Assembly: GCA_003290165.1 (NCBI GenBank)
Contig: QNQO01000457.1
Location: forward strand, 496,001-560,000
Direction of reading: 5' to 3'
Origin: Berberis thunbergii
Taxonomy: Eukaryota; Streptophyta; Magnoliopsida; Ranunculales; Berberidaceae
DNA: 64,000 nt
The notes under the pieces: generated by a model
The model's database searches: none
Told to the model about the DNA's origin: nothing
What the model saw: the letters and a program-made list of their open reading frames with translations, nothing else
Made by a program: the position numbers and the translations under genes
Shown: piece after piece, positions 2,563 to 36,750 of the stretch
Numbering within the stretch: the first letter of the stretch is position 1
Layout of the letters: every line of letters begins with the position of its first letter

Positions 2563-2775
2563 CACTACACCAAAAGGTCTGTTTAGCTACAGAGAGATGG
2601 CCACGGCTGTAAACCGTTGGTTTATTTGCCACTGCCAAAAACAGTGGCTATAACGGCCAACGGTTTACAACCGTGGCTAAAACAAAAGTGGCTATATACA
2701 CTACACCAAAGGGGTTGCCACGGCCAAAAATCGTGGCTAACTGCCAACGGTTTAAAACCGTGGCTATAAGATTTT
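2563..2775 (+). repeat. CACTA-1 5' terminal and subterminal palindromic repeats, with a second terminus at 2699
   Basis: After the terminus at 2563 come copies of a short palindromic motif close to CCAACGGTTTAAAACCGTGG. In related elements such subterminal repeats bind the transposase. A second CACTACACCAAAGG begins at 2699, only 136 bp inside the first, and is itself followed by the same repeats. The end therefore looks duplicated. Confidence 0.75.
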
Positions 2776-3040
2776 CACGTACAGTTTCGCGCTTTGGCGA
2801 AAATAGTTTCGTGCTTTGGAGGGAGCAGTTTCGCGCTTCGGCGAAAAAATTGGGGAAAAACAATGGAGAGGAGAGAGCAGTTTTGCGCTTTGGGGAAAAA
2901 CAATGGAGAGGAGAACAGTTTCGCGCTTTGGAGAGGAGAGCAGTTTCGCGCTTTGGAGAAAAAAATTGGGAAAAACAGTGGAGAGGAGAGCAGTTTCGCG
3001 CTTTGGAGGGAGTAGTTTTGCGCTTTTGCGAAAAAAACTT
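2776..3040 (+). repeat. G/A-rich minisatellite in the CACTA-1 5' region
   Basis: Irregular tandem units combine AGCAGTTTCGCGCTTTGG with purine-rich stretches such as GGAGAGGAGAG and GGGGAAAAACAATGG. All six frames stay partly open across it, which produces spurious ORFs on both strands. The other three CACTA elements have a comparable minisatellite in the same position. Confidence 0.8.
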
Positions 3041-3949
3041 GCGCGGAGGAGAGATCGAGGAGCTCCATTTTTGTTTCGAATCAGATTGTGGAGAACACTT
3101 TCAAGGTTTGGTTCGCCTTCTTCCATTTTCATTTTAGGGTTCCTTAGAAAATCAGAATCAAAGAGAGGAGCAGAGGAGAGTGTGAAGAGAAAGAAGAAGA
3201 AGTGAACCATAATCAATCAGTGGAGGATCTTTCGAGCCGGGGAACGGCTTGGTCTGGTAATGAATTTGTTTTTTACTTCTTCGGTTCTTGAATTTTTTTT
3301 TTGAATTTTTTGAAGACATGTTAGATTGAAGTAATGTTTTAGCCCTTTGTTGATGTATGATTTTGTTGATTGTTTGATAAACCTTTGTTGATGCTTTCAT
3401 TTTAGGGTTTGTTAGAAAATCAGAGTGAGAGAGAAGAGCAAATACGGTTTGTTAGCCCTTTTTTGATGCTTTCATTTTAGGGTTTGTTAGATAATCAGAG
3501 TGAGAGAACGGTTTGTCTTGATACGAAAAATCTTTTTGGTTGGAAAATGTTTTATTGTCTTCAGTCTTCACCATTATCTTGTTTCACTTCACCCATTTCT
3601 GTGCAATTTATTTGTTTGCCCCCTAAAACTAAAATAGATTCATTTTCCTTTTGTAGGATAATTTCCTTGCTGAAAGCAGAGAAGGAGGAAAAGAGAAAAG
3701 CAAGGGAGAAGACCCGTCAGAAACTGAAGAGGATAAGGTATATGTTGAATTCTCAACTTATCTTTTATTGAGGTATGATTGAAGAATAATTTGTTTAAGT
3801 TCATACTTCATAAACACATTTAATGAGGCTGAGAATTCTTATTTTATGTTGAGTTCTTATTATTGTTATTACTAATATTATTATTATCATTATTATTTTG
3901 GGTGCCTTCTTTTACTCATATATCTAGTATGGACTGTATAGTAGACCTT
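3041..3949 (+). other. CACTA-1 5' spacer, probable untranslated leader region
   Basis: No convincing gene. The phrase CATTTTAGGGTTTGTTAGA followed by aATCAGAGTGAGAGAG recurs three times (about 3127, 3398 and 3471), so this is local duplication. The position just inside the 5' subterminal repeats fits the transposase promoter and leader. The triplet ATA at 3950-3952 is the left TSD copy of CACTA-2. Confidence 0.4.
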
Positions 3950-3952
3950 ATA

Positions 3953-4462
3953 CACTACACCAAAAATCCCCATTAGCAACGGTTTTAAACCGTGGGGGTA
4001 ACCCATTGTCACGGCTAAGAGCCGTGGGCTATAGAGGCGTCGTGAAATTCCTTTTAACAGCTATAAACCGTTGCTAAACATTTTAGCAACGGTTTTATGC
4101 TTGAGGAGGTGTGGTGATTTTCAGCATTTAGCCACGGTTTTAAACCATTGCAAGAACAATAGCAACGATTTTTAGCCGTGGCCAAAGTAGCTACGGTTTT
4201 AAGCCGTGATAATGCATGGACAATAGCAATGGTTTTAAACCGTGGCCAACAAAATAGCAACGGTTTTAAGCCATGGCTAACTCTGGCCACGGTTTTAAGC
4301 AGTGGCTAAATATGAGAAATAAGCCGTGGCAAACGTCATAGCAACGGTTTTTAGCCGTGTCAAGTCATGGCCACGATTTTAAGCCGTGGCAACTGATGAA
4401 GAAATACCACGGTTTGCAGCCGTTGCAAGAGGTGACCACGGTTGTAAGCCGTTGGCAGTTAA
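3953..4462 (-). repeat. CACTA-2 3' terminal and subterminal repeat array
   Basis: About fourteen copies of a palindromic unit close to CCACGGTTTTAAACCGTGG, or the variant CAACGGTTTTAAGCCGTTG, lie roughly 30-40 bp apart. Such arrays are binding platforms for CACTA transposase proteins. A CTGCTGCTGCAG stretch near 4531 follows, and it is shared with the 3' end of CACTA-1 (38778). Confidence 0.85.
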
Positions 4463-5049
4463 AACAAAATTCAAAAAAATAAATAAATCTGGTTTGTTGC
4501 GAAAATAATATAATACAAAAAAAATTTGCTGCTGCTGCAGAATTGGAACAATCCAATTTCAAACTGATAATGCAATCACAGAGAATACTGGAAGATGATA
4601 TTGCAGTTTCAGCATTAATCAAGCATTATCAAGAGAATCACAGAAAGGGAAGACAAAGAATTCACAGGAAGGAAAGATTTATTTGATTGGAATGTAAAGG
4701 TTACAATGGTCTGATAGACTAGAATGTATTAGGCACAATTCGAGATTGCCAATCTCCTACACTTGTATAATGTGTTTACAAAAATGAATCAATGCTTTCT
4801 GTTACAGACCCCCCTACTTATATCAGTTCCTAAAAGTTCCTAATGCCTTTATAATTCTCCATAAAGCACAAAACAACACTGCATTGATATAGCAACAATG
4901 CCACAACAATTTTGTGTAACCATCCATACTTCCAGACTTGCTAACTTGCTAACAGATAACCCCCCAGATTTCCAAGCTTGCTAACAGACTTACAGACTTG
5001 CTAATAGACTTGCTAACCAACCATAATGTAAATACAGCATGAGTATACC
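4463..5049. other. CACTA-2 interior, no gene recognised
   Basis: A/T-rich sequence without a supportable coding run. Around 4935-5025 the phrase CAGACTTGCTAAC and variants repeat several times. Nothing else stands out. Confidence 0.4.
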
Positions 5050-5320
5050 TGCAAGAAATGCATCCACCTCTTCAGCCAGCACATCAAACACATCACCCTT
5101 CCAATCAGCTGTAAGATAAATTTTAACCCTGGACAAGCCACACCTCAAGTTAATACTCTTATTTTGCTTATTTCACTTGTGAAAAAAATAAATTTTAAAG
5201 CACTTATAGCTGTCTTTGCAAGTGCCTTTGCGAGCAGCTCTAGTGCTGAAAGGCCAGATGAACTCAGAAGATCTTCAGCTGCAGACTTGAATGCTGGAAC
5301 CACACTGCATTTTAAGGTTG
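5050..5320 (-). pseudogene. Captured fragment: DEAD-box RNA helicase C-terminal (GUCT) region, RH7-like
   Basis: On the - strand one segment (about 5320-5205) reads VPAFKSAAEDLLSSSGLSAL then ELLAKALAKTA. This resembles the segment after the helicase core in GUCT-domain DEAD-box proteins such as plant RH7. A second exon-like piece (5116-5050), bounded by splice consensus, reads ADWKGDVFDVLAEEVDAFLA, which fits the GUCT fold nearby. The intron between is retained, so capture was from genomic DNA and not from mRNA. No helicase motifs are present, so it encodes no enzyme. The family call is by recognition only. Confidence 0.5.
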
Positions 5321-5742
5321 CTTAAATATATGCAAGAAATGATTTGTAATTATAATAAGCAATCATCTATTACTAGTAATATAAACTACAGAGAACAGTA
5401 AATGTTAGTGCTGAATAAACAAATAGCAAACAGTTAGAAATCTAGAAATTTAAGCAAACAAGCTTACAAAAGTTTTGCGCCCAACACATCTATGAACACA
5501 AACAAGCTATAAGTCACAGAATATGCTATTTCCATGTCTAAATTAAATATCAACTGATAATGAAACATAAGATCTACCAGTAATGGTAGTTGTTTCTAGC
5601 CCAAGGCAAGCTAAACTCGTAAAAACATTAAAAAACAAAGAAATGTGGACTATAGAATGAAATGTTGAGATTCAAAAGATAGTTCGACTAAAAATTCATG
5701 GGTTTACTTCAAATGACAACATAAGAAAGATGCTGAACTCAC

Positions 5743-6311
5743 CATATCCTTCCATTGAGATAATTTGCAGATCACCTCCAAAATAGCGAGCATAGAAACG
5801 ACTTATTGGAAGCCCAAATTTATATCCTGCCATTATTGCCCCATCATTGGATTCAAGTTCTGTTTCACCCAGCGGATTTTTTGCTGTACTGTACAGATAT
5901 GTAAAAATCTTGGGAAGACCACTTCTTGGTATACCACCACCTTCATTAGAGATCTGTGGTACAAGAAAGTTGAACTTTTTCTAAACTAACTCGTTTACAG
6001 AGTAGAAAGAAAACTACCATATGTGTTTTGCATGTATATATGAATGTGTACGTATGTCTTGCATTTGGGTGTATACTAATACTATGCACATCTTTATTGG
6101 ATAAAACTGAAATAGATCCCTAGTAATTGATCACATGGGCCATAAACAATGGCAAAGCTTAGATGCGTGTGTGTAAAGTTTATTTCAACTACAATTCATC
6201 ATTAAATAATCAAGCATGTACCTTTATTGTGACATCTTCTAACCCATCAACAACTATGATTCTAACTGGAGGTGCATCTCATTCAGAATCCATAAATCGC
6301 TCTCCTTCCAA
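5743..6311 (-). pseudogene. PDK: Captured fragment: mitochondrial pyruvate dehydrogenase kinase, two exons
   Basis: Two - strand exons with splice sites are visible. Exon 6311-6222 reads ERFMDSE, stop, DAPPVRIIVVDGLEDVTIK. Exon 5953-5743 reads SNEGGGIPRSGLPKIFTYLY and on to MAGYKFGLPISRFYARYFGG. This is the GHKL ATP-binding region of pyruvate dehydrogenase kinase, which inhibits the mitochondrial PDH complex by phosphorylation. The glycine-rich G-box GGGIPRSGLPK is intact. An in-frame TGA breaks exon one. The N-terminal regulatory domain is missing. Neighbours are unrelated gene fragments in the same orientation. Confidence 0.85.
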
Positions 6312-7321
6312 CTGTTTTTTAGAGGCTGCAGCATCATAAAGAAAAAAAAAACATTACAAGTACAAAATAACAAAAACAACATTAATTTCTGAAGCAAATT
6401 AAAAACATTACAAGTACAAAATAACAAAAACAACATTACAAGTTAAACGGCTTCCTTTAAGATAAAGTTAACCAGCATCTTTGTTTGTTTGTCTCACCTC
6501 TTGACATGTACATGGGGTTGTTGATGGACTGTCCAGAGTGTATGATAGGACTTAGATAGTTTTCATTTTCAAATTTAACATGTCTAATGTAGAGGGGCTC
6601 TTCTAGATAAAATTTATTAGTAAGAAAGTTGATAGATTTTTTAATTAAAGTATTATTACACCAGAACTAACTACCTATCATTGAAATGGGTAAGGGTGTT
6701 ATAATAAACAAAATAATAATAAATAACATTGACATACAAAATCCAAATATAAAATAGCAAACCTGGACTAAGACAGGAAGAATGTCCATGCCAAACTTAA
6801 AGCACCAAATGAAGTCAGCCCAAGCAGTCAGCTCCCAGCAACCCGGACAGCACCAACGCAAGCTCTGTTTCCCAGCAGCGTGCAGAAAAACCTGCAAGCC
6901 TCCCAGCAGACCTCTACCACAGCTCAAAACTGGTGTGCTAACCGCGCACGCTGAAACCCGCTGCGACCAGAAACAGCACGTACAACAAACACGCTGAATC
7001 ACACTCTGCCTGGATCAACATCGCACTCTGACTGCAATGTAGAGCACGCTGAAACTGCAGTGTACCCTACCTGGGACGCGCTCTGTGATGCAGTGTTCAG
7101 ATCATCCCTTCCCTTTCAGTTACCGCCGGATTATCTCCAGTGTTTATTGATAAAGGAGGGAGTAGCAAATTGAGGAGCAATAGTAGAACTTTGTCCAAGG
7201 GAAAAAAACGCAAAATCTCATTTATAATCAATATTCTAAAATAAATAGATCAAATGTCATGAGTTGGGATCATATGGTTAACTATGTGACTACTTGTAAT
7301 ATCAATAATCAAATTCCTTAC
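6312..7321. other. CACTA-2 interior, unassigned
   Basis: No recognised gene. A locally GC-rich block at 6780-7110 differs in composition from its surroundings and is open in several frames, but no product matches anything I know. A duplicated stretch around 6345-6440 (ACATTACAAGTACAAAATAA twice) is a short direct repeat. Confidence 0.35.
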
Positions 7322-7545
7322 CTGGCCAAGACCATCCATTGTGGTAACTCCATCTAGTGTTTTTTGGATCGCAGCCTGTAACAATCCGCCATTCATGAGT
7401 TTCTATGGTTGGATAGCAAATCTTAAGTGGCATTTCTCCAACTAATTCTTCCTAGCGCGACTCAATAAGATCCATAATAGCTGCAGACTGCTCAGGGGTT
7501 GCTGATTGAAAGCACCCATAGGAAAGAGAGTTGCTGATTGAACTC
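7322..7545 (-). pseudogene. Captured fragment: alkaline/neutral invertase (GH100)
   Basis: The - strand exon reads PEQSAAIMDLIESR, stop, [20 protein letters not shown], then [20 protein letters not shown]. It ends in a splice donor after SWP. This is the highly conserved C-terminal part of plant neutral invertases, cytosolic or organellar enzymes that split sucrose. The in-frame TAG at 7452-7454 replaces the Trp expected in the family. Only one exon is present. Confidence 0.85.
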
Positions 7546-7561
7546 ATGCTTTAGCTGTGCC

Positions 7562-7635
7562 AAGTAGAATCTTCATACGAGCTTCCCCATTGTTCCAAGT
7601 TGCCATTGTTGACATACTCGTAGACGAGCCCTGAT
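7562..7635 (-). pseudogene. Captured fragment: receptor-like protein kinase
   Basis: The - strand reads GLVYEYVNNGNLEQW, then after a frame change GEARMKILLG. In receptor-like kinases of the At2g42960/At3g59110 type, LVYEYVNNGNLEQWL and LTWEARMKILLGTAK lie close together in the kinase hinge region. The two motifs are joined here with a small internal deletion. The fragment is too short to be functional. Confidence 0.65.
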
Positions 7636-8619
7636 TCAGTCATATTGAGGCATGATGAGAGCAGTGATAAATCAAGATATGATTAGGATTAGGCAGATTC
7701 CAGCTTGTAAATCAGTTTACCTCGTATCCGTGATTGGCTCCAGCTTGTAAATTAGTTTCCACTGCATCACAAACACATTCAATTGTTTTACTTAATCGCA
7801 GAAAGGTGCTTAACACACAGAATCAATCAAACAATATGGTTGTTGAGATATAAAAGAAAAAATAAGAAAAAAGAAAGATGAAATCTTCATTGTGTTTTAC
7901 AAAAATCATACTAAATGTGGTGATCATTAAACTCCCATTTACTTTTCAAAGGATAAATCAATATTAATTAGAACAAATCATTCCATAAAAAACCAATAAG
8001 AAATCATTTTGTGAAAAAAAAAATTAGCCCATAACCTGTATTTTTCTTCTTGTAGAATATAAATTTCTTCTCATATTTATGAATGAAACTATTAGGGAAG
8101 ATACAGAAAGAAAATCCATTTATTTAAAGTAGAAAAATTGACAGAATGAAGAGCAAAGAAACTTACAGTTCCCTGGGTCTAGATAAGCCAAGGAAACTAG
8201 AAAACTAGGTCCCACATAAGGCCAAAAGCTTTTCCACAATGATTCCTAATCAAACACCACAAATTTTACAAACCCTTAGTTTCCAACATAATGGGGTTCA
8301 ACCAAAAATCCAAATAACTAAAAAAAAAAAAAATCAACAAGAATTCAGACCTTTTGTTTGGGGTTCTCATGATGATCAAAACGACCCATTGCACCACTAG
8401 TTGTACTAGTGATGGACCCTTCTCCATTATTGGGTTGTTGACTGTCACTAGTGTTTCACAACTTGTAAAGAAACCCGCCCTAAACATAAGTGGATAAAAA
8501 TACCTCTATTAGTTTATTTTATCGATACATGTTCCATAAATATTGCCTTTTGAGTGTCAACAGTTGATCAGCAAACACAAGTATGAACAATCTTAACAGG
8601 AAGAAGTAGAAGAATCTAC
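7636..8619. other. CACTA-2 interior, no gene recognised
   Basis: A/T-rich non-coding sequence, plausibly introns retained from captured genes. Nothing supportable as coding. Confidence 0.4.
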
Positions 8620-8701
8620 CTGCATGAATTGAAACACAAATAGTTCCATCAAAGTTAGTTGAAGCAGCGTAACTTGAAAGCTCCTTGGAAGCCCATAATA
8701 T
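8620..8701 (-). pseudogene. Candidate captured exon, gene not recognised
   Basis: An 82-bp open segment on the - strand has an acceptor-like TTTCAAG before it and a donor-like CAGGTAGA after it. Two frames are open: one reads ILWASKELSSYAASTNFDGT, the other YYGLPRSFQVTLLQLTLMEL. I cannot name the source. It lies between clearly captured fragments in the same orientation, which is why it is listed. Confidence 0.3.
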
Positions 8702-9224
8702 CTTGAAATTACATCAAGGAAAACAAATGTGAAAAAGCAACTGAAAGTCGAAGAAGTTCATTCTGTAATATAATAATATATTCTTATTTGTTCCGGATGA
8801 CCTTAAGCAATGACCCAAGGATGACGGAAATCGACAATTGAAACATATCAGTTTACATCAATATGCAAATAGCCACACATATACTGAGATGGCACTAAGT
8901 CGCTCATTGTCATTAGCACCACAGGCAAAGGCCTTAATATGACACTAATGGTATCGGTGCATCCAAGGTAGTAAGAAGAGGGATTACCTAATAGCGAATA
9001 CCTTTGGAGTTGTAAATATGGTAGGAAACGATAGCAAGAGGAACTACAATGTAAAAGATCATGAAGCGTTTTCTGATTTTCAAACTTTACTGCTTGGAAA
9101 ATTCCCCCCACCCCCACCAAATTTGGAGTAAAAAATCCCCTGTTTCTCTTCCCCACGGAAAGAACAAAAATGAAAAGGAAATTATAGAAATCAAAGCACA
9201 AGAAAGTTACTCAGTAAAATTTAC
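8702..9224. other. CACTA-2 interior, no gene recognised
   Basis: Possible coding-like composition on the - strand around 8870-9050, but no frame gives a recognisable protein. Confidence 0.35.
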
Positions 9225-9382
9225 CAGGGACAAGTTTTGTCGTTATGACTCTCCTGCTTGAAATATCCTCAAATACCAGGGGCACATAAAACTGTTTTTT
9301 CACAAAGCAAATCACATAATCTTTTCTGACTTGCTGCCTCCAACTCATAGTTGCATTCTTGAGAAAGCTCCTGCTTTGCCAC
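9225..9382 (-). pseudogene. Captured exon: ABC1/COQ8-like atypical kinase
   Basis: The exon has acceptor CAG before 9382 and a GT donor after 9225. Its - strand reads VAKQELSQECNYELEAASQK then RLCDLL. After a one-base frame change it continues as FYVPLVFEDISSRRVITTKL VP. The KE.S.ECDYE.EA..Q block is diagnostic of the ABC1/UbiB/COQ8 family, which supports ubiquinone synthesis in mitochondria or related plastid roles. The frameshift breaks the product. Confidence 0.75.
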
Positions 9383-10053
9383 CTGCAAAGAATTCACCAT
9401 GTATTCTTAAACATATTATGTCCTTTTAATTCAACATTTTCAGCTTCATCACAATAACATCAAATTTGGATTAAAAAAACCTCTACACAGGCATTGATTT
9501 TAATCATGTAACATAACAAATGATGAAGGCCACATGTGATCCTATGTGTGTGTCAACTCATCTAATAACACCACGTGAGAGAGATTTTCTTCATTTGGAA
9601 ATAATAATAATAATAATAAGTACGCTGTTTGTGTTTTCCACAATTAGATTTAATAAGTTTGATATTAACCAATTTTGAAAAAAAAACTGTGAAATCCCAA
9701 GAGATTCTCTCTAGTTAACCCATTAACCAAAAAATAGGAAATTAGTTACTTACTTGGAGATCTCTATATCAATCAACAATTCAACCAGGCTTAGAAATTC
9801 AAAACAACTTGAAATTCCAAAACAGTGAGGATTAAGGAACCAACAATGTAAAATCCTTTTAAATAGATGGCTATTTACTTCGGGGGACGTGCTCGAAGTA
9901 AAGTTTCTAGGCGCGGCATTTTTGGTTCTGTAAGCTTATGAGGATCCCACTGATTCTGTCCGTGCAAGTTACAGTTTTACTATAAATAATCTTACGTATT
10001 GTAATCAATGGAATTGACAAATCAGATAGTCAAGTGGAACACAAATGTAGAAC
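9383..10053. other. CACTA-2 interior, no gene recognised
   Basis: Non-coding and A/T-rich, with an (AAT)n microsatellite at about 9600-9620. Probably intron or filler DNA. Confidence 0.4.
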
Positions 10054-11147
10054 CTTGTTTACAGGTCTAGCCTTGAACTTTGGGATCTTTGCCATCATCT
10101 CTTCCTCAATTTCAGCTGAACTTTGCAGCCTAACAGGACTAGCTCGCTGAGAAGTTTCGAAGTCAGGTCCCATGGGTCTTGTCAGGGCGAGCTTCGGCTT
10201 CCTATGATTCACGGAAGCTGCATCATCCTGAATCATCATCAGAGACTCAAATTGTTGTTTAAAAGTTTAAACATGCAAGTGGAAAGAAGAATCATGTAGA
10301 TACAGGTCCAATAGTGAGTGAATTAAATTCATTACATGTGAAAGAGAGCAGTTTTTCTGAGGTAGAGATGTGCTTCTTGTACTGGTCTGGAATTTATTCA
10401 CCATTTCTGTTAGTGAAACATAAGGTTGTGCTTGTGCTTGTTCGCGAACGTAAAGCTATAGATGAATCAAAATTTACAAAGTCAATAAACCGTATCGAAA
10501 CAGTTTTTACTTCATTGTAATGGAAATCAAACAAGAGAGCTCAGAGACAAACCTTTCTGTGCTCTTTGCGAGTTTTGCTACCGGATAAACACGAATTTGC
10601 AGGAACACCAGGTCTTGACTTGTGGGGAAGATTTTGTGTTTTGGGATTTAAAATCTGGGATAGCAACAATATATTAGCAATCCCAAAACTCTAGTATAAC
10701 AAATAGTGTTTGATTTCTTGCGAAAAAAGAGAAGCAATCTTTTAAGACACTGACCTGTCTGGTTCTTCCACCTTCCAGTTTCTGTCTCTTAATTGCTTGA
10801 TTTTCTTGAATAAAATGATCAGACGCTTTAACTGGCTTCTTTGCGGTAGTAGCACTATGAAATATTAACAAGTCCAATTAGTTTCTTCACTTACATGAGT
10901 AGATATATTCGTGAGACATCAACTGTAATAGAACTAAAAATAAATAAAATAAACACTAACCTTCTCACAGGTGTTGGCTTCCCACATTTCATTTGTGATA
11001 GTTGGGACTGGTTTTTGAGTTTCAGAGCAGATGGGTTTTTCACCAAACTAGCTATCTTTTTAGTTGTTTGGTTAGTTCTAGTGTCGGTGAGCCGTGGATC
11101 ACCTCTCTTAGGAAGCATTTGTGGCTTTGGTGTGCACAATTCAGTTC
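10054..11147 (-). pseudogene. TPX2: Captured multi-exon fragment: TPX2 (Xklp2-targeting spindle protein)
   Basis: Four - strand exon-like pieces appear in the order expected for plant TPX2. The first (11147-10960) contains PRLTDTRTNQTTKKIASLVK and KNPSALKLKNQSQLSQMKC. The second (about 10860-10755) contains QENQAIKRQKLEGGRTRQV. The third (about 10660-10553) reads NPKTQNLPHKSRPGVPA and SGSKTRKEHRK. The fourth (about 10240-10054) contains LTRPMGPDFETSQRASPVRL and EIEEEMMAKIPKFKARPVNK. The introns are retained. TPX2 activates Aurora kinase and organises spindle microtubules. Only a middle part is present, so function is not expected. Confidence 0.85.
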
Positions 11148-11391
11148 CTGTTGAAGCATCGAGTTAAAAACATGTTTTGACAAGGCATTGTAATTTCCAG
11201 AAAACATAAACTAATAAACCAAATATCACACCAACTTTAACTCATATCAGCCGCAGACCAAATATTTTACCTGAAGTATCCTCAAAATCATAAACAAAAA
11301 AAATAATGGATCAATAACAAAGCATAGAATCAGTGAAACTCATCTGGAGTATCCTCTTACTGAAATGCATATATATTTTCAAGCAGCGGAC
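11148..11391. other. Spacer between the TPX2 and SEC31 fragments
   Basis: Non-coding. No feature seen. Confidence 0.4.
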
Positions 11392-11573
11392 CTATTTTTG
11401 TAAGGTAGTGCTGTAGTCCCCATTGTCTAAAGCCTGGCAAAGTTCAACAAGCTTATCGACTGGATTCTTAGAAATGTCTCCACTATTGAGTTTCGAAAAT
11501 AAAGCACCAATTTTTTTTGAATTATCTTCTATTTCTCGCTTTTTTGCTGGATTTGCACGTGAGCCTCCAAACA
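11392..11573 (-). pseudogene. SEC31: Captured exon: COPII coat subunit SEC31 C-terminal region
   Basis: The - strand reads [20 protein letters not shown], then [20 protein letters not shown], then [18 protein letters not shown]. This matches the C-terminal alpha-solenoid region of plant SEC31, an outer COPII coat protein of ER export sites. The open frame is intact here. It abuts the importin-alpha exon directly, with no intron between, at a shared TTTGGAGG (11564-11571 on the other strand). This points to a fused capture junction. Confidence 0.85.
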
Positions 11574-12110
11574 AACAGTAACAATTCTAGGGTCAGGGCA
11601 GACAAGGAGATAACACAATGGCTTAATGCAACCTTGTTCCACCAGGTACCTGCAAGGGAAATTATCAAATGAACGACACACTAAATTGTATACTGGAAGA
11701 ATAAGAGAATGAAAATAGATGGAGATGGAAAATACTTTATTTGTTCATGGGCTCTACCAGAAGTAGCATTTGAAATTGCCTATGCAGACTCTTTCTTGAT
11801 ATCAAATTCAGCAGTTTGAAGAAGTTGAACCAAGGGGGTAATGATATTAGCAGAAATAACAGCCTACACAATTTAAAACCGTACTTGGCATAAGATATCA
11901 TATACTACAGTACCAAATTATATTTTAGACGAAGATATCACGATTAATGACAACTTTAAAGGATCAATTTTTCTTTACCTGTATCTGATCCTTGTTCCCA
12001 GCTGTGATATTTGAAATGGTCCAACAAGCTTCTTTCTTAATGCTCTTTTTGTGGTTGTTCGTCAACAAGCTAAGAAGGCATGGGAGTGCTTGTTGGTTGA
12101 TAATGAACTA
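11574..12110 (-). pseudogene. Captured multi-exon fragment: importin-alpha
   Basis: Three - strand exons match armadillo repeats of importin-alpha. About 12110-11980 reads [19 protein letters not shown] then [16 protein letters not shown]. About 11865-11735 reads AVISANIITPLVQLLQTAEF, DIKKESA, stop, [15 protein letters not shown]. About 11651-11574 reads [20 protein letters not shown] then RIVT. Importin-alpha carries NLS cargo to the nucleus. The TAG at 11780-11782 replaces the Trp expected in the family. Introns are retained. The last exon runs straight into the SEC31 fragment. Confidence 0.9.
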
Positions 12111-12196
12111 CACAAAGGGCCAGAAAGTTGTCAAACCGTAATTCAGGATAACAAAGCACAGTAGTGCTTATAAGATACAGAAAGAAGGCTGGCATA

Positions 12197-12798
<602 letters not shown>

Positions 12799-14437
12799 CT
12801 ATGTATCATCAAGTTCCACATGATTTTTACACCATACAAAGAAATCACCAACGTCCAAATCCCCCATCATGTCTCCTTTTTTATCACTCTTGTAAAGTTT
12901 CACCTCAGTCCTGAATTTGAAGCATAAGGAAAGTCTGATCTCTGTTGCAGGGTTCAATGATCCATGACAAGCGCAAGAGAATCGATGGATAGGATTTACA
13001 ACCTCTATTGCTATCGCAATGACATTCTTTTCCCAATCACAAACTTTGTAAGTCCTTGACACTGAAGGAACAAGGTTGCTTGGAGAAGGAAACCTCGCAA
13101 CACCTTGAGAAGATGATGGTAATGGAGATGGTGGTAATGGAGATGGAGGTAATGGATTTTCTGGTTGCCTTGTCGATTGTTCACGGGATGACGGTGTATC
13201 TTCAGTTCTTTGTGTCCATCCTTGTGTTCCCTCACTTGTTGATGGTCTCACATTAGTTCCACTTTCAAGTCTCTCTCGTATCCATCTAACATTTTCTTCC
13301 AATCTATCATATTTTTCGCTAATTTTTTTTACTTCCAATGTTTTATCCAAAAGCAATGAACGAGCGGGAAGTGCAGCATCATACTTCCTTTTAGAGATGG
13401 TGGTTCCAACACAACGAGTACGCCTTCTCGCTTCTTGGCCCAATACTTGGCTTAGAGGATCATCATCAATAGTGAGGTCAGTGGTACCCTGGGTTGAAGA
13501 TTCTTGCAAGGCGACTTTTTTTGCTTTAACTTGTTCCTTCAAAATAATGAAAAAATCGCTAAATCAGGACACAAATAATATTCAAACAACTACAAAGTAA
13601 ATTAAGAATTGTGTATAAAAGACATCATTGGGCACATACCATATATAGTTCAGCACCATGCGTGGGTTTTCCATCCTTTCCTGTGTGACAAGCAATCCAT
13701 ATGTCAGTGCGTGTGACTGGTTCCCCATCAGGGTTCTTCTCAACCTATATACTTGAAAGATTAGTCTCAGCCTATATAATTAAATAGTTATTATTGTACT
13801 AGTAACTAGAAACTCAATTACCATTTCATACTCTACTTCTGCAACACTCTTTTGGCCACCCCCCCCCATACATACTTTGAAGCCTTTTTGTTTTTTGCAT
13901 TTTGGGCTCTAATTGCCTTCGTTTCAAGGGTGCTCTCATAGCGAACAAACTCCTTCCAATCCTCCTTTCTTACACCATTTAGAGCATGTTTCTCTTGTTC
14001 CTCAATGGTAGGATACTTATCCAAATAATTCTTCCTAAGATCTGCCTTGAACCTTCTATAATATTCAGGCATTTTCAAATGCACACTCCTTTTCACATAA
14101 TTTGGGATGTCGTATTCACGTTGCAAATAAGCCATTGAGATATAAGTTGAAAATAAAATAAGACATTATGAAAATCAATGATGTAAAATCTCACCTTGAG
14201 GCCATTCCACACATCCTTTTTGTAGTTGTCAGTAACATGGTGCCAACCTTTGAATTTGATGGGCACAAGGGTTTCAACAAGCTTTCCAATGTTTTTATTA
14301 AAATTTCTAGCACTAGGTCCAACTGCTAAACCGTGGAGGTTGAACTGTATGGTCTTTTTAACTTCACTGTCATCATTTGTAGATGTAGTGACATCAATGG
14401 TGGGGAGATTGCCGCGAGTACTATCCATTTCTATCAA
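12799..14437 (-). pseudogene. CACTA-2 second ORF, Ptta/En/Spm-type (Transposase_24) protein
   Basis: Exons on the - strand: about 14437-14193 (contains KLVETLVPIKFKGWHHVTDN), 14121-13823 (contains NYVKRSVHLKMPEYYRRFK), about 13745-13640 (TRTDIWIACHTGKDGKPTHG) and 13542-12799. The last contains a Pro-rich PLPPS repeat and ends KVCDWEKNVIAIAIE to VGDFFVWCKNHVELDDT. The first three exons fit the plant transposase Ptta/En/Spm family, partner of TNP2 in CACTA movement. A run of nine C at 13859-13867, against seven in CACTA-3 (44952-44958), shifts the frame in exon two. The last exon is fully open. Confidence 0.8.
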
Positions 14438-16640
14438 TGATGTTATAGATATTAACCATTGTTAAACAAAAAGAAATAAGAAACAACTATATACATCACA
14501 TTTATAGATAATTTCCTTCCACAACATATCACTACAAATAGATTTTTATAAAGCATTGAAAAAGCCAATCTGAATACATAGCTACAAAGCTTCCCTTTCC
14601 CAACTCAAAAGTCAAAATAAGAAACAAAGACAAAATATTTGGTCTCAACTTAATCATCTCCCTTTGTGGCCCATGAATTGGCATAACGAGGTGCCGATAC
14701 TAGGTTATGCATTAAGTCCTAACTTTTAAGTCCTACTAACTTTTAACTTTTAAGTCCTACTAACAACATTTATAATAAAGGCTTATGCATTTACGCCTTG
14801 TTGAAGTCAACTTTTAATGTAAACATTCATTTTTTAAGTCATACATTTAGACAACATGCATAAAGATGATTGATAGCATTCTTTACTCATGAGGATGATA
14901 AAGTTCATGTGTCCATTGTGGCAATTTGGTTTTTGATTATACGAGTACCAAATGAATTTTGATAAAACTCCTAAAAAGGCGAAAAAGAGGAAAAGAAGAA
15001 AACTTTTTTCGATAATTTAGGTTAGTCGAAAGTTTTACAATAGTGCATTGTTTGGTTTTACAGAGTTCACAAATATTCATCTTTAGCTTAATAAAAATAA
15101 ATAAACAATAAAATGAGATATTGTTTTTCCCTCTACCTCACTCTTCCCTCTGGATTTTCAAAACATACTTTAATAACTTCTAAAACATCATCATTAAGGA
15201 AATTTTGGTAATAATTTTATTGACAAATGCAAATTTCACCATTATAAACATAAGAATTCTGAATTCCAAATCATGATATTTTCAAATGCAAATGTGTAAT
15301 AATAAAATTTGAAATTAAAATAAAAAAAAACCGATCGAAGAAAAATATAAACAACGTTGTACATCTCTTTCAACTGTTTGATAATACATTGTTTTCTCAT
15401 TAAATGGGATACCTAAGTACCACCCCCCGCTTATCTCTAATACAACAACAAATCACCATTACATATTTCACAAAAATTAAAAGAGATGCATAAATAGATA
15501 AACTACAAATTAAGGCTTCTAATGGACTAAATCGAAACTGTAAATAACATCCAATACAAAGACATCTTTCATAAGCTGCAACTCGAAACCGATTACAAAA
15601 ATCAAGTAATGATCCTATTATCACTCCGGCCGGTAACAACAAATTAGAGAACATTATGAACATAACCAAACAATCAAACTTACTCAAATGGTCAAATTTT
15701 TAGAGACAATATATGAAGATAAACAAAATAATCAAACTTGCCCTAATGGTCACCCAATGGCCAAATCACTATGGACTTCCAAACTACCCCCACTTTCACC
15801 TTGACTTTACTTTACTGTGGGCACCCCCTACAACCACTATGGGCCACCACTCAACATTTCTATGGGCAATCTAAGCCCATCTTCATGTCTAGCTTTTTTT
15901 TTTCATAAGGATCTGTTTGGTTGTATGGAAAATAAACATAAAAATTGAAATAATTTAGTTGTGAGGCCTCCCTTTGGACTTAGATTTGAGTAGCGAAAAA
16001 ATAGTCGTACTTAAAATAGTAGATCATTTAATCAGTTGTTGCACCATCTCGAGGACATGGACGCTCATAACGCCTATTCGATTACTTGTTCTATGGAAAC
16101 ATAGTGATCCTAAAAATATGATTTAATAGTGTTTTCACTACTCAATCACAGACATTAGCATAAAATGTGAAGGGATTATATACTTCAAAATCAGTTACTA
16201 TTCCTTAGTGGTGATCTATACATCTTGGACACCATAAAAAACACTCTGAAATCTTTGATTATATACTTACTACTATTATATCAACAATCGTTCAGAAACT
16301 AAACAATTCAGCCAAACAAGAAACAACAAGTATTAGACAAAAAATTAGCAATGACTTACTTCTACTCTTAATCTATATTCTTGAGATGTATTTCCTGGTT
16401 TCAAATTATATCAGGAATTTCATACAAAAATTAAAGATTCAAAAAATTAAATTATATCATAAATTTGTCAGGCATACGGTTTTGAGCCCAGAGATTCAAA
16501 CCCTAATTTCAAAAAACCTCTAAATAAAACCTACAGATTCAAAACACAATTTAGGAACCTTAGAGATTCAAAACCTCTAAATAAAAAAACTCTACATTCA
16601 GGAACCCTAATTTCATCAAAAATAAAACAGAGAGAGAGAG
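14438..16640. other. CACTA-2 5' spacer with the TNP2 deletion junction
   Basis: Sequence 14466-14650 matches the intergenic DNA between TNP2 and the second ORF in CACTA-1 (about 22430-22620) and CACTA-3. Near 14650 it jumps to sequence matching CACTA-1 at 18575-18625 (AATCATCTCCCTTTGTGGCC on the + strand), which lies upstream of TNP2. The entire transposase is therefore missing. Beyond this is A/T-rich non-coding DNA. The stretch 16330-16640 is closely similar to CACTA-3 at 51690-52010 and is probably the shared leader region. Confidence 0.7.
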
Positions 16641-16950
16641 AGAGTACATGTACGAGAAAATGGTTGCAGTGGCTGATCGATTTTGCAAATGGTTTGGAGG
16701 TTGAAGACGCCGAGTAAGGAGGGAAGACCAGGGAAGGAGGGGAGGAGGGAAGTCGAGGGAGGGAGCAGGGAAGTCGAATGGAGCAAGGAAGTGGAGTCGA
16801 GGGAGCAGGGAAGTGGAGTCGAATGGATGGAAGTCGAAGGAGGGAGCAAGGAAGTCGAATGGAGAGGAGGGAAGTCGAGGGAGCAGGGAAGTGGAGTCGA
16901 GTGGAGGGAAGTCGAATGGAGGGGAAGGTTGAAGTCGAGCGCCAAAATAG
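16641..16950 (-). repeat. G/A-rich minisatellite in the CACTA-2 5' region
   Basis: Tandem, irregular units built from GGGAAGTCGAGGGAGCAGG and GAAGTGGAGTCGAATGGA on the + strand. Open frames on both strands here are repeat artefacts. Homologous to 52050-52310 in CACTA-3. Confidence 0.85.
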
Positions 16951-16974
16951 CCCGCCCAATTTTTTTTTCAACTT

Positions 16975-17331
16975 TTTAGGTTGCCATGGTTTTGAGCCGT
17001 TGCTACTAGTAGCCACGGTTTTAAACCGTGGCCAAGTTTTTTTTTGCAACGGTTTAAGCCGTTTCTGCTATTACCCACGATTTTTAGCCGTTGCTAGTAG
17101 TACCCACAGTTTTAAGCCGTTGCTAATAGTAGCCATGGTTTTGAGCCGTTGCTAGTTATAGCCACGGTTTTTTGTCGTGGCCAATAAGCCAACGGTTTTC
17201 AGCCGTTGCTAATTTTTTCCACGGTTTTAAGCTGTTGGTCATTATAGCTACGGTTTTAGCCGTGGCAACTAAACCAACGGTTTAAAACCGTGGCCAGCTT
17301 AGCGTAGCTAAACTGGCCTTTTGGTGTAGTG
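16975..17331 (-). repeat. CACTA-2 5' terminal and subterminal repeat array
   Basis: About ten palindromic units of the form CCACGGTTTTAAACCGTGG or CAACGG...CCGTTG end in the terminus CCTTTTGGTGTAGTG at 17331. The innermost terminal 40 bp, containing GTTTAGCTACGC on the - strand, is shared with CACTA-3 and CACTA-1 5' ends. Confidence 0.85.
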
Positions 17332-17566
17332 ATACATGACAATTTTACTGTTTTTCAAAAACTCCTTTGAGATTGGTCTGCTAAAATTGTAAGCAACTTT
17401 ACATTAAACTTAAATCCTAGAAAAAACTCTATGAAGCATGTAACCCTTTGAACATTGCCCTGGAATATTGAAACCTAACTTGTTGAACAAATCTCAAGCT
17501 ATCTTCAAGGAGCAAAAATTGCAATTACACAGCTTGACTCCTCAGGATATTAAAGCATATATTTAT

Positions 17567-18498
17567 TTCTATTTGTTTTCTCAAAACAATTCTAAGAATA
17601 ATTCTTGGATGAGCACCTCGTTATACTAGCGGTAACCTAGTATCGGCACCGCTCTCTTGAACTGTTCAAAGAATTATCTTCAAATGATTATTGTTATTCT
17701 TGTTTATTTTTATCTGTGTGTTTTACTATTTTTGTATGTTCTTTTTCCTGTGTTCAACTATCTGTTCTAGACTGTAAGTTTTGTTTGCTTTTTGAAACCT
17801 AGTAGTCCTGGGTGCAAAATTGGTATCAGATGAACTGAAACTGATTGGAAAGATGGAGGTAGTGTCAATATAAGAATATCTTTACTTCTATTTATTTTCT
17901 CAAAACAATTCTAAGAACAATTCCTGGATGAACACCTCGTTATACTAGCGGTAACCTAGTATCGGCACCGTTCTCTTCAACTGTTCAAAGAATTATCTTC
18001 AAATGATTATTGTTATTCTTGTCTATTTTTATCTGTGTGTTTCACTATTTTTGTATGTTATTTTTCCTGTGTTCAACTATCTGTTCTAGACTGTAACTTT
18101 AGTTTGCTTTCTGAAACCTAGTAGTTCTGGGTGCAAAATTGGAATCAGATGAACTGAAACTGATTGGAAAGATGGAGGTAGTGTAAATAAAATCATATAT
18201 TTATTTCTAATTATTTTCTCAAAACAATTTTAAGAACAATTCTTGGATGAACAACTCGTTATACTAGCGGTAACCTAGTATCGACACCGTTCTCTTGAAC
18301 TGTTCAAAGAATTATCTTCAAATGATTATTGTTATTCTTGTCTATTTTTATTTGTGTGTTTTACTATTTCTGTATGTTATTTCTCCTGTGTTCAACTATC
18401 TGTTCTAGACTGTAAGTTTACTTTGCTTTTTGAAACCTAGTAGTCATGGGTGCAAAATTGGTATCAGATGAACTGAAACTGATTGGAAAGATGGAGGT
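17567..18498 (+). repeat. Three tandem copies of a 319-bp unit upstream of TNP2 in CACTA-1
   Basis: Landmarks such as AGATGGAGGT recur at 17851, 18170 and 18489, exactly 319 bp apart, and the copies are highly similar. Each contains CTCGTTATACTAGCGGTAAC followed by CTAGTATCGGCACC. Each ends in TTGGTATCAGATGAAC, whose TGGTATCAGA core resembles a copia initiator-tRNA primer-binding site. The unit may derive from an LTR end plus PBS. A decayed piece of the unit (GTGCCGATACTAGGTTATGC) is also present at 14690 in CACTA-2. Confidence 0.85.
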
Positions 18499-18748
18499 GT
18501 AGGGCACTCCCATGTATTCCATGTCTATTGAATACTATTTGATTAAGCAGACACTCTTAGATATTATTCTAGTAAACTAATTTGCTTCTTATGCCAATTC
18601 ATGGGCCTCAAAGGGAGATGATTAAGGGGAAGATAGCCTCCTCATGGTATGGTTCCTATGGAGGTTATCCTCGTAAAGTGTCACTCTCAATCTTTTAATT
18701 TTCTTAAGTGTTTGACTAAAGTTAATCTTTTAATTTTTTTGTGTAGAA

Positions 18749-21700
18749 ATGTCAACAATTCCTTTAGATAAGTCATGGATGAACAAATGAGGAAGTGCAA
18801 TGTATATAAACGGCGTTAGACAATTCCAAAAGTTTGTTGAGGATAATGCAAATGGAAAGTCTTTTTCCTTGCCCATGTGTTCGATGTAGGAACTCCAGGG
18901 GAAACATTAGTGTTGATAACATAGGTGTTCATTTGTTAAGCGATGGCATTAATACCATTTATGTCACGTGGATACATCATGGAGAAAATATAAAAAAAAG
19001 GTGATTGGTGTACCTATGACAGAAGTGGTTGAGCCTGATGATGCCTTTGAATATCCTAGGATGAGCGACCTAGTTGATGATGTATTCCTCAACATGCAAA
19101 CTGTGGAGGCCGATGATGGGATAAATGACTTGAATGATACCGTCGAAGAATGTTTTGGCGGTAATCCAGAAGGTGGTCCGAAACTTTCTTGTGAACCTGA
19201 GACAGTTATGAACAAGAAGTATAAAAAATATAAGGAAAAAACGACTGTGCCTTTGTACAATGGGTGTCCTAAGGATAAGACCACGTTGTCCACCATTATT
19301 GAATTGCAGAATGTCAAGACTCATTTTAGTTGAAGTGGTAATAGTGTGACGATGTTGTTAAAATGGTTAAAAACCTTATTGCCGGATGATTGTAATTTGC
19401 CAGATAACTACCCAAACATGAAAAACACAATTAAAGATATGGGAATGGAATGTAAGACAATACATGCATGTGCCAATGGATGCATATTCTATTGGAAAGA
19501 CTATGAGGGTCTGGTTACTTGTCCAAAATGTGGTTCTGGTAGGTATAAGGTTTATGTGGATGTTGATGACAACGAGTCCGACAAGGTATACAGGAAAAAA
19601 ACTAAAAAGGTTGTAAAGTATTTTCCATTGATTCCAAGGTTGAAAAGATGTTTTAGCATACCGTAGATTGGTGAAGCAATGACTTGGCACAAAGATGCTT
19701 GTTCAGATGGGAATTTGATGAGACATCCATGTGATTCAACACATGGACTTCAACAAATATGAGATGGCCAGAGTTTGCCTCTGATAGTAGGAATTTGAGA
19801 CTTGCAATATCGACTGATGGTTTTAACCCACGTGGAAATCTAAGTAATGCTTATAGTTGTTGGCCAGTAATAATAGCACGTTTGAATCTTCCACCTTTAT
19901 GCATGAAAAAGGAGTTTTGTTTGTTAACCTTGTTAATATCAGGGCCAAAAGCACCCGAAAAGAATATTGATGTTTACCTGGAGCCATTAGTAGAAGAGTT
20001 GAAGGAATTGTGGGCAGATGGTGTTTCAACTTGGGATGTGTGTACTAAAAGCAATTTTTGATTGAAAGCAATGTTGTTTTGGGGTATCCATGACTTTCTT
20101 GCTTATGGTACTCTAGCTGGTTGTAATGTTCATGGTTATAATGCATGACCTATTTGTGTTGATGATGTAGAATCTGAACGTCTTTCAAACAGTCGGAAGA
20201 TATGCTATAGAGGCCATCGACGTTTTTTACCTACAAAACACAAGTTTAGAGATGACAAGGGCTTCAACAAAGATGTTGAACATCATCGTGCTCCACGATG
20301 ATTATCTAGTGAAGAAGTTGAATGAAGGATAGTGAAAATTTTGGATGGTAGTTCTACACAAGGTAGGGTTAGTGGGCAAAAGCGCAAGAATATTGTTGAT
20401 AATGATAACGTCAATGATGAACCAACCAATAACATTGCACCACCATGGTCTAGAAGGTCCATTTTATTTGATTTGCCGTAGTGGAAGTTTGTTGAGCTAC
20501 GACATAATATTGATGTGATGCATACTGAAAAGAATGTCATTGAACACTTATTGAACATATTGTTGAATGTGTCTAAGAAAACAAAGGATGGTGAGAATGC
20601 TCGAAAAGATATGGAAGACATGGGAACTCATAAGAGATATTGGTTGAGCCATGACAATGAAACGGGAAAAACTTCAATGCCAAAAGCATCATTTGCCTTG
20701 ACCAAGAAAGAAAAAAAAAGTATTTATGAATACACTAAAAGAGTTGAAATTGCCGAGTGGATTTTCATCCAAGTTGAGTAATTGCGTTCTTGGCAATCCC
20801 CTGGAGCTAAGAGGATTGAAGTCACATGACTACCATGTCATTATGCAACATTTACTTACAGCTTTGCTTAGACATGTTTTTCCTGACAAAAAGGATAAAG
20901 ATTTAAGAATAGCTATTCAAAGAATTAGCTTATTCTTTAATATCTTATGTGCTAAAGTGATCAATAAAACAAATCTTTAGTTGGCACACAAAGGTGTGAT
21001 TGAGGCAATGTGTGTCCTTGAAAAGGAGTTTCCGCCTTCATTCTTTGTTATAAGTGTGCATTGCATGGCTCATCTAACCGAGGAAGCGATGTTTGGTGGT
21101 CCAGTTCGATATCGATGGATGTATCCCTTTGAGCGGTAAATAATTTTTCTAATTTTAGTGCACGTCATCACTTTATCTTATTATATTATATACTAATTTA
21201 TCATTTTATTTATGATTGATAGATTAATGAAATGATACAAAGACTATGCTAAAAATTTCAGATACATAGAAGGATCAATAACATAATCATACCTTGTAGA
21301 TGAATCTGTTACATACTGCATGGAGTATATGACAAAGCCACGGTTCGGAACTCACAAACACAGTCAAGAGGAGTGGCTTGATGTTGATGATGAGTATGCC
21401 GATGAAAAGCCATTGGATAAAAGGAAAAAACTATATGATAAATAATGTACAATTTAAACAAGCTCGAAGATGGGTTTTCAATGCACTTGCTGATTCGAGT
21501 GATTGGGAAGAGTAAGATATATAATATTTTAGTTTTTTTTATAACTAGAAATATAGAATTATGATAATATGGTAACTTTTACAAAAAATACAATGAATAT
21601 TGCATGGAGTTGGCTACACAAAGTAAAAAAAAAGGGTCAAGGAAAAATGTTGAGAAAACCACTGATTTTATTCCTTGGTTGTGTAATAAGGTATTTTATA

Positions 21701-22330
21701 ATGTGTATATATTCATATATATATAATTTTTTTTATTTTAATATTTCAGTTCTAAGATGATTTGTTTTACAATGTAGTTGGAGAAGGCTGGGGAAACAAA
21801 TACCACACTTTGGAGGTTAGCCAATGGTCCACAATTTTTGCCACCCGATATCCAAAATATTGTGTAGATGGTTTCACATTTGTGACAAGTTCTTTCGATG
21901 AATGTTTGATGACACAAGATAGTGGTGTCTCCATGGATGCCATTGCTCATTTTGTTGCTAGTAAGAAAGATAAGAGGCCAAAGGACCAACTAGTCAAATG
22001 GTATGGAGTTGTTAGAGACATACTGGTGCTAGACTACATAGATTTCAAAGAAACTGTCTTCTATTGTGATTGGGTCAAAGTGGAAGATAAGAAAAATGCA
22101 TATAAGGTGGACTCAATTTGGAACCATGAGATGGTAGACTTGTCAAAGCTAAAAGACAAAAGAAAGGTGGAAGAGGATCCATTCATTTTAGCTCAAGAAG
22201 CAAGTGGGGTATTTTATTCGAAAGATCAATCAAATGACGGGTGGCATGTAGTTCTACATACTCAAAGAGGCTTGAACACTAATGTCGATAAAAGGAAACT
22301 CCCACTGTGTAACAAAGCATCTTGAAAGAC
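18749..22330 (+). pseudogene. CACTA-1 TNP2-type transposase, heavily mutated
   Basis: Begins at 18749 (MSTIPLDKSWMNK, then stop). Regions in order: Transposase-associated zinc-finger-like domain (about 18749-19000), tnp2 core (19680-20700), DUF4218 (20726-21137, HCMAHLTEEAMFGGPVRYR), and DUF4216 (about 21780-22250, KWYGVVRDILVLDYIDFK). At least nine premature stops and some frameshifts break it. Comparison with the CACTA-3 copy shows CGG>TGA at 18778-18780, TGG>TGA at 19331, TGG>TAG at 19664, CGG>TGA at 20059, CAG>TAG at 20978 and CGA>TGA at 21233. All of these are C-to-T or G-to-A transitions. It cannot make transposase. Confidence 0.9.
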
Positions 22331-22628
22331 AACCCCAACTTGAAGAGCTTACTGGAATTTTAATTGACTATGCTACAATATTTTTTGATGCATTTCTAAA
22401 GCTATTTTAGTCATCCTCTTTGGTTGAGACCAATTATTTTGTCTTTGTTTCTTATTTTGACTTTTGAGTTGGGAAAGGGAAGCTTTGTAGTTAAGTATTC
22501 ATATTGGCTTTTCCAATGCTTTATAAAAATCTATTTGTGGTGATATGTTGTGGAAGGAAACTATCTATAAATGTAGTGTATATAGTTGTTTCTTATTTCT
22601 TTTTGTTTGATAATGGTTAATATCTATA

Positions 22629-24250: not shown

Positions 24251-24424
24251 TATTTACAACTATGGGCACGTGATTGTTCATTTTAAGGTAAATTGCCCCC
24301 TTCTTTCATGGAGTCTACGCTCTGAATAAAAAAAAAGGAGGAAAAATATTATGAATTAATTCATTTGATCGTATATGCAAGATCACAAGGACAAAATCTT
24401 GCATTGAACTATCTCAAAGTTAGG
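24251..24424. other. 3' flank of the CACTA-1 second ORF
   Basis: Matches the corresponding flank in CACTA-2 up to about 24290, then diverges. That divergence marks the border between transposon gene and captured DNA. Confidence 0.4.
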
Positions 24425-24511
24425 AAACACAACTGCAGAACCTACTCCTCATGTCCATGCTTCCTAAGGATGATGCAGATGAATGGGACTGCATTTTGGA
24501 GGTGAGAGCAG
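24425..24511 (+). pseudogene. Captured exon: organellar peptide chain release factor 1 (PrfA-type)
   Basis: The + strand reads ETQLQNLLLMSMLPKDDADE then WDCILEVRA, followed by a GT donor. The LLPKDDADERDCILEVRAG block precedes the GGQ-bearing domain in mitochondrial RF1 of plants. Only this exon is present; the GGQ catalytic loop is absent. It is the first captured piece after the CACTA-1 transposase genes. Confidence 0.6.
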
Positions 24512-28378: not shown

Positions 28379-29146
28379 AGGCTACCTAGAAATTTTACTG
28401 TCTGTCTTCAATGTATGTCGCATGGTTAGACAGGCTCTCTTAATTGTCATTGTTGAGATCTCACTTTTGTAGATACGACCTTGTCTGAGTTCCGCTTTGT
28501 AGTCTTACCAATCCTTTATTTCTTGTTTCCTGTGATGATAGATCAATGCCAGCCTTAGCATTGGTTGTAGAATTCTCTTTATTTTTGTAGAAGCAAAAAT
28601 TAGAATATATTTTTCCAAGTAACGTAAGATATATTTGATAAACAGAACGGTCTTATTTACTTTTGAGACAGGACGCCCCCACAGGTGGGATGCACTATTA
28701 AACATAGAAACTGGCAATCTGAGATTTCTGTGGAAAATCAAGTTTTTTGCCTATCATTTGAGTTTTCTATATATTGGTTTGGGTTTTGAATTCCACAAAT
28801 TCATTAAGGAAAAAGTTCATATGTCTTTATCCCTCTTGCCCCCTATCCTCATTTCTTCCACGCTCCCACTCTCTTATTTAGTCGCCTTTGCGTTATCTAT
28901 CTTGATCCCTTTCTCTCAGCACCTTGAATCAAAGCCTTGTAAGCTCTCAAGTCTCAACCGATCCTTTTTTTCTCAAATGATGGTTTTTCAAACAGATACT
29001 GTTTCTTGCTTCTAAAGTGTGACTGTTATTCTGAATTGAGTTGTTGTATAATGGATTTTGGATCAAATGAGTATTCATACAGCTGAACCATTGCCTTAGT
29101 TGCATTTCATATTTCTTTAATGATTTATTTTTATGGTTGTTGCAGG
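28379..29146. other. Between the TOP1 and ARIA fragments, no gene recognised
   Basis: Open frames here (for example 28635-29015) have intron-like composition and match nothing I know. Likely intron or filler. Confidence 0.4.
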
Positions 29147-36701: not shown

Positions 36702-36750
36702 ATAACGTTTCTTCATCTGATGGTTAACAAAGCTATTAAATTTTTTTGCC

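Follow-up and report, generated by a model that had tools for sequence, protein, structure and literature searches.

The 3' part of a non-autonomous CACTA transposon in Berberis thunbergii holds pieces from about ten unrelated host genes, every one in the direction of the element's transposase. We analysed a window of 64,000 nt (contig QNQO01000457.1 of assembly GCA_003290165.1, positions 496,001-560,000 of the forward strand) that holds four CACTA elements, nested in part, here called E1 to E4; positions are counted from the first letter of the window. E1 lies on the minus strand at 3953..17331 (13,379 bp), with its 5' end at 17331 and its 3' end at 3953, and is nested in its sister E2. The 3' cargo of E2 and of a second sister, E3, comes from other genes and also reads in sense. 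We give roughly even odds (about 0.5) to the reading that the sense cargo of E1 was copied in serially by template-switching gap repair and that its direction was kept by selection.

Host-gene pieces in E1

We scanned the whole of E1 against Pfam in six frames (E ≤ 0.1), scanned 4440-12800 more finely (E ≤ 1), and searched PDB with the three minus frames and three short queries. Host-gene pieces occupy 8.2 kb of the element. Eight donors are strong (RAB2, importin-alpha, SEC31, TPX2, neutral invertase, PDK, DEAD-box RH7 and NRAMP) and two are weak (ABC1 kinase and receptor kinase), all on the minus strand. Pfam families in the minus frames were Glyco_hydro_100 (1.5e-26), Ras (1.4e-14), Arm (3.2e-13 and 8.6e-6), TPX2_importin (3.4e-11), HATPase_c (0.017) and HEAT_EZ (0.0044, on the same stretch as Arm). 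PDB matches included importin-alpha (7.7e-30), the invertase CINV1 (1.6e-28), RAB2A (1.2e-15) and PDK (3.4e-15), and the third minus frame had no match in PDB. The original prediction had named at least nine such pieces on the transposase strand; seven of these proved strong and two weak, and NRAMP, missed at that time, makes the tenth.

Read in the direction of the transposase, the cargo begins with a RAB2 exon (12248-12447) that has both splice sites, a Ras domain and a PDB match. Importin-alpha follows with its introns kept (11572-12113); the exons at 11964-12113 and 11717-11872 were found by search and that at 11572-11649 by eye. It is joined in mid-exon to a SEC31B exon of 58 amino acids (11398-11571), for which a protein-database search returned 321 of 336 candidates at E ≤ 0.001 (best 2.0e-23, 88% identity); no SEC31 match appeared in the PDB search, where the best match was unrelated (E = 0.11). 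TPX2 exons span 10048-11163, with the domain match at 10048-10188 and the remainder recognised by eye. A frameshifted ABC1-kinase exon (9220-9400) gave weak, colinear matches in two adjoining frames (0.084 and 0.10). Next come an exon-like piece with no donor named, flanked by a strong acceptor and a splice donor (8620-8762), and an NRAMP transporter exon (8162-8233; PDB 9.5e-5) with a second exon seen by eye at about 7720-7762. The receptor-kinase exon (7560-7664) is a weak assignment, its best PDB match being CERK1 at E = 0.18. An alkaline/neutral invertase exon with an in-frame stop (7322-7511) and a PDK exon (5666-5995; another, upstream of it, was seen by eye at about 6240-6340) precede two exon pieces of DEAD-box RNA helicase 7, in gene order, at 5047-5306. 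The helicase pieces were assigned by protein search (121 of 252 candidates at E ≤ 0.001, best 5.5e-6), each being weak alone in tblastn (E 0.001-0.016 and 0.15-0.70).

There is no credible gene family on the plus strand of E1. The three plus frames contained no Pfam family at E ≤ 0.1 over the whole element, and the finer scan of 4440-12800 added on that strand only DUF3192 (0.086) and DUF5494 (0.016), both below cut-off; on the minus strand it also gave a chance-like UL2 (0.14).

The pieces came from genomic DNA and not from cDNA, as the original prediction had held, because introns and splice sites have been kept. Intact sites include the RAB2 acceptor (12447) and donor (12253), the importin-alpha donor (11978), the ABC1 acceptor (9382) and donor (9224) and the invertase donor (7321). 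The importin-alpha/SEC31 join, at about 11571, falls within exons of both genes and must therefore have been made in DNA rather than by splicing. Damage is seen in some of them: the reading of ABC1 runs over two frames, and those of importin-alpha and invertase contain stops. The pieces are unlikely to code for working proteins.

Orientation of cargo in E1 and its relatives

E1 has CACTACACCAAAA at 3953 on the plus strand and at 17331 on the minus strand, CACTA-type inverted repeats, and a perfect ATA duplication on both sides (3950-3952 and 17332-17334). Pack-MULEs have Mutator-type ends and a target duplication of about 9-11 bp, and Helitrons have 5' TC and 3' CTRR ends without target duplication. 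E1's own ends are of CACTA type, and these, with its 3-bp duplication, place it outside the Pack-MULEs. E2 (2563..39224, plus strand; flanks AGG/GGG, one mismatch) has both E1 and E4 nested inside it, and E3 (39880..52715, minus strand) has a TTG/TTG target-site duplication. The three are sisters, sharing end types and subterminal repeats. These repeats are clustered: ACGGTTTTAAGCCGT has 80 matches at up to 3 mismatches against 0.80 expected, nearly all close to the termini of E1, E2 and E3. An element running from 2563 to 17331 was considered and rejected, because its 78-nt inverted match joins ends of one type that belong to two sister elements; judged by end type and target-site duplication, 3953 pairs with 17331 and 2563 with 39224. 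The 5'-end pattern of the family had no match in viral contigs and none in prokaryote contigs.

The sisters also share a core. TNP2 (Transposase_21) lies in E2 at 19741-20331 (E = 1.9e-73) and in E3 at 47846-48468 (E = 1.2e-49), and a protein search with it returned plant relatives (98 proteins of 389 candidates, best 48% identity). E1 has no TNP2 and is therefore non-autonomous; CACTA members of that kind can do without the gene. At 14649/14650 its match to E2 18589-18626 switches to one starting at E2 22423, with about 3.8 kb of the E2 equivalent (about 18627-22422, including TNP2) missing. E1 keeps a TNPA-like region (12944-14649, minus strand; weak Transposase_24, PF03004, E = 0.032, below cut-off) whose alignments with E2 and E3 show 92.8% and 93.7% identity, respectively; the cores of E2 and E3 are 92.8% identical across 5.4 kb. 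A 15-bp repeat in the TNPA-like reading differs in copy number across the sisters (3.1 at 13111-13156, 2.1 at 23911-23941, 5.1 at 44170-44245).

All eight strong donors in E1, and all ten in total, are in sense (one-sided P 0.001 for 10/10 if independent). The 3' cargo of E2 (26770..29235, plus strand, sense) consists of strong topoisomerase I pieces (26770-28362) and a weak Arm match (29149-29235, E = 0.011). That of E3 (41017..43212, minus strand, sense) holds DOG1 (43045-43212, 1.5e-16), Na_sulph_symp (42076-42249, 4.4e-6, counted as strong by E-value though just under its cut-off) and a weak ACT match (41017-41121, 0.039); its three plus frames contained no Pfam family. Together, the 3' cargo of the three sisters is in sense in 11 of 11 strong cases and in 15 of 15 with the weak ones included (one-sided P 3e-5 if independent). 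None of this cargo is shared (BLASTN, E ≤ 1e-4, at least 40 bp). Since core and ends are common and cargo is not, each cargo was gained or replaced separately, after the elements diverged.

Two strand-specific signals agree with this direction in E1. Counting splice sites that scored at least 4, against 200 shuffles, we found 17 sense donors where 6.3 were expected (no shuffle reached 17) and no antisense donor where 5.7 were expected (2 of 200 shuffles were that low). Plant introns favour T over A on the coding strand, and T exceeded A on the transposase strand in most 400-bp windows of the 3' cargo (17/20 in E1, 11/13 in E2, 8/9 in E3), against 4/13 (E2) and 5/13 (E3) windows in the cores.

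The bias has limits. In the 5' filler of E3, upstream of the transposase, two exons of a KIX_2 (MED15-like) gene stand in order on the plus strand (49441..50522; 3.6e-4 and 0.023), antisense to the E3 transposase; this is the sole antisense exception found in the same family, and the base skew of the filler agrees with it (T over A in 1 of 5 windows). E4, a CACTA element of another family (29702..38524, plus strand, CACTACTACAAA ends, AGA/AGA target-site duplication), carries pieces in both directions: Agenet (36319-36489, 1.2e-18) and CAAD (37449-37568, 1.1e-7) on the plus strand, in sense, and a DA1-like piece (31335-31478, 1.3e-9) and Cu-oxidase_3 (31606-32143, 2.2e-10) on the minus strand, in antisense. 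T exceeds A in 13 of 14 windows of E4 32200-37900. A Raf-like kinase recognised by eye in E4 at about 34391-34720 gave no Pfam family in three frames and was not counted. The gene-piece scans left out 2767-3952, 22431-24269 and 51731-52715.

All antisense exceptions thus lie outside the 3' cargo of the E1-E3 family. Sense and antisense pieces number 11:0 in that cargo and 2:3 elsewhere (Fisher P about 0.02 by hand arithmetic, with a grouping that was chosen after the data were seen and mixes two CACTA families). Within this window, the sense bias is a property of one family's 3' cargo rather than of CACTA cargo at large. The original prediction of a preference for sense orientation accordingly stands for the three sisters' 3' cargo and is not a general rule here, given the antisense pieces of E3 and E4; antisense cargo in many family members, which it had named as counter-evidence, is borne out in part, by the E3 piece.

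Some features of the surroundings stand apart from the cargo. A further CACTACACCAAAG end, flanked by ATA, lies at 2699-2711 (plus strand) within the 5' subterminal region of E2, and no partner for it was found. The 5' filler of E2 contains a 319-bp unit three times head-to-tail, 93% alike (17552-18498), and gave no Pfam family in six frames over 17335-18712. To the right of E3 a 183-bp unit stands in tandem in 7.3 copies (53999-55324). By eye, the subterminal repeats of E4 are of a GCGCTT type, and 1-1260 and 53460-53880 resemble remnants of retrotransposon polymerase and integrase.

Capture of the pieces and the origin of their direction

Slipped short duplications are a trace of template-switching repair synthesis. 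We counted exact direct repeats of at least 11 bp within 120 bp of each other, with expectations from shuffles, and found an excess in cargo and filler: 10 in the E1 cargo (0.35 expected), 3 in the E1 5' filler (0.15), 6 in the E3 cargo at 40600-43990 (0.22) and 6 in E4 at 32200-37900 (0.28). The cores had none (E2 18713-24108, 0.28 expected; E3 44300-49421, 0.33, limits that exclude the 15-bp tandem repeat at 44170-44245), and the flanks had 1 each (0.25 and 0.10). The E1 repeats form five clusters (4933-5017, 6347-6443, 6946-7055, 7498-7542 and 7699-7752), mostly between identified pieces; 9 of 10 midpoints fall between pieces, which cover half of the cargo (limits partly by eye).

Capture could also proceed through compound elements, by tandem insertion and re-mobilisation. 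This is disfavoured by the near absence of subterminal repeats from the E1 cargo, where the single match (11868) has 3 mismatches, and by the weakness of the matches to CACTA ends there (5879, 6654 and 7760, each with 2-3 mismatches): the window as a whole holds 36 such matches against 29.0 expected, a chance level. Because slipped short duplications are present and subterminal repeats between the pieces are not, we infer that capture was driven by repair.

In the reading we prefer, the gap left by excision would be repaired by synthesis that switches templates and copies gene pieces in, one after another. By analogy with the exons of the soybean element Tgmt*, the 3' cargo would follow the TNPA-like region within the element's own transcription unit. 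Pieces in sense whose splice sites work could then be spliced through as the tail of the element's gene. Antisense pieces of housekeeping genes would be lost, either because their RNA would anneal to host mRNA or because they would interfere with the transcript. Avoidance of polyadenylation signals was also considered as the cause of the sense direction and was rejected, sense AATAAA not being below expectation in E1 or E3, nor significantly so in E2.

Several observations weigh against selection acting on serially captured pieces. Pieces inside one element may not be independent events, and the argument from position was formed after the data were seen and involves a small number of antisense pieces, one of them in E3 and two in E4. 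The repair-like repeats are uneven: they are absent from the E1 cargo above 7752, and just 1 (0.20 expected) occurs in the E2 cargo. Acceptors in E1 are not significant (sense 10 against 7.5 expected, antisense 1 against 3.5), and donors show no significant strand bias in E2 (6:3) or E3 (3:2). Antisense acceptors even exceed expectation in E3 (4 against 1.0, reached by 2 of 200 shuffles) and, mildly, in E2 (5 against 2.3, 15 of 200 shuffles). Sense-strand polyadenylation signals in E1 are not depleted beyond composition (10 AATAAA against 6.1 expected). The flanks outside the elements are skewed as well, in their case towards A over T on the plus strand (T over A in 0/6 and 7/28 windows), so base skew alone is weak evidence. 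Finally, CACTA elements of Chenopodium are reported to hold captured gene fragments in the 5' region and not the 3' region (PMC8978399), and a 3' cargo site is therefore not general.

A less probable account is that few events were involved: much of the cargo would have arrived in one block, taken from a locus or mosaic element elsewhere, direction would be inherited, and the odds given above would be overstated. The closeness of the pieces and the repeat-free junctions above 7752 fit a block. It sits poorly with unrelated cargo running in the same direction in three sisters, with a breakpoint observed inside exons, and with the lack of CACTA subterminal repeats, and the chance level of end-like matches, between the pieces.

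Direction might instead be set by the capture step, if one broken end always extends and copies one gene strand, such as the displaced coding strand of transcribed genes, with no need for selection; we regard this as rather unlikely. It would account for different, all-sense 3' cargo in three sister elements, the filler does hold repair-like repeats, and many of the named donors (RAB2, importin-alpha, SEC31, topoisomerase I and PDK) are broadly expressed. Yet antisense pieces occur in the E3 5' filler and in E4, which has the same kind of repeats, and the idea is weakened because a CACTA-wide mechanism would not allow them. A more specific and more doubtful form is coupled to transcription: a fixed broken end would copy the exposed coding strand of active genes during gap repair, and all 3' cargo would come in as sense. 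Were it true, the element would be a directional exon trap, growing a chain of spliceable host exons.

Very improbable is the original prediction's own explanation, that sense order was kept since a long chimeric RNA yields small RNAs against host genes: the retained splice sites leave room for a long sense transcript, but such RNA must be made double-stranded before it can pair with host mRNA, and antisense cargo, which would serve better, is what the 3' cargo has none of.

Exon shuffling and the making of new genes are ascribed to transposons that pick up gene fragments. Whether capture ignores the direction of genes can be tested cleanly in the E1-E3 family, whose members have a common core and carry different cargo at the same place and in one direction. 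Selection as the cause would mean that the captured region is transcribed and spliced; a cause in the capture step would mean that gene direction is read by the repair process.

Comparison with known systems

Multi-gene capture by CACTA elements is already known from Tgm-Express1 and Pack-CACTA. Within the parts of the literature searched, no paper was found to state that genes captured by CACTA elements favour one orientation, and whether capture is blind to direction is not settled there. The Chenopodium elements, like E1, have captured host gene fragments outside their coding sequence (PMC8978399). Their fragments are reported as 5', whereas those described here are mostly in the 3' part, the only 5' case being the antisense E3 piece. 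In Ipomoea nil, elements of the Tpn1 family hold host genic regions between their conserved ends, and some of these regions are transcribed chimerically (PMC5105172); CACTA ends around captured genic DNA are equally a feature of E1. The same report found no TnpA-only Tpn1 copy in the I. nil genome, whereas E1 keeps a TNPA-like region without TNP2; the orientation of Tpn1 cargo is not given in the part available.

E1 also conforms to Pack-CACTA, being a non-autonomous CACTA element with coding DNA of several host genes, and shares with Pack-TYPE elements the probable derivation of that DNA from several loci (PMC8903248). The mechanism proposed for Pack-TYPE elements, tandem insertion followed by re-mobilisation (PMC8903248), might leave element ends inside; the E1 cargo lacks subterminal repeats bar the one 3-mismatch match. 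The available part of PMC8903248 does not report the orientation of captured genes.

The place of the E1-E3 cargo has a counterpart in Tgmt*, a putative autonomous soybean CACTA element of 20.5 kb. Its Gene-1 has 24 exons over 14.6 kb and a polyadenylation site 1.2 kb from the element end, and exons 11-24 follow the transposase exons in one long transcription unit (PMC2613891). The 3' cargo of E1-E3 matches these later exons in position, downstream of the TNPA-like region. In Tgmt* they are reported as the element's own mosaic gene, whereas the equivalent place in E1 holds recognisable host-gene pieces.

In Tgm-Express1, a soybean CACTA element, five captured host gene fragments are spliced as exons (PMC1947982), and since they are exons of one transcript they must share one direction. 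E1 resembles it in carrying genomic exon-intron pieces of several unrelated genes, in one direction and with usable splice sites. Tgm-Express1 is known from transcripts too, E1 from sequence alone. E1 differs further in drawing on about ten donors, in a TNPA-like region by which its transposase strand is established, and in having sisters whose sense cargo is of other kinds.

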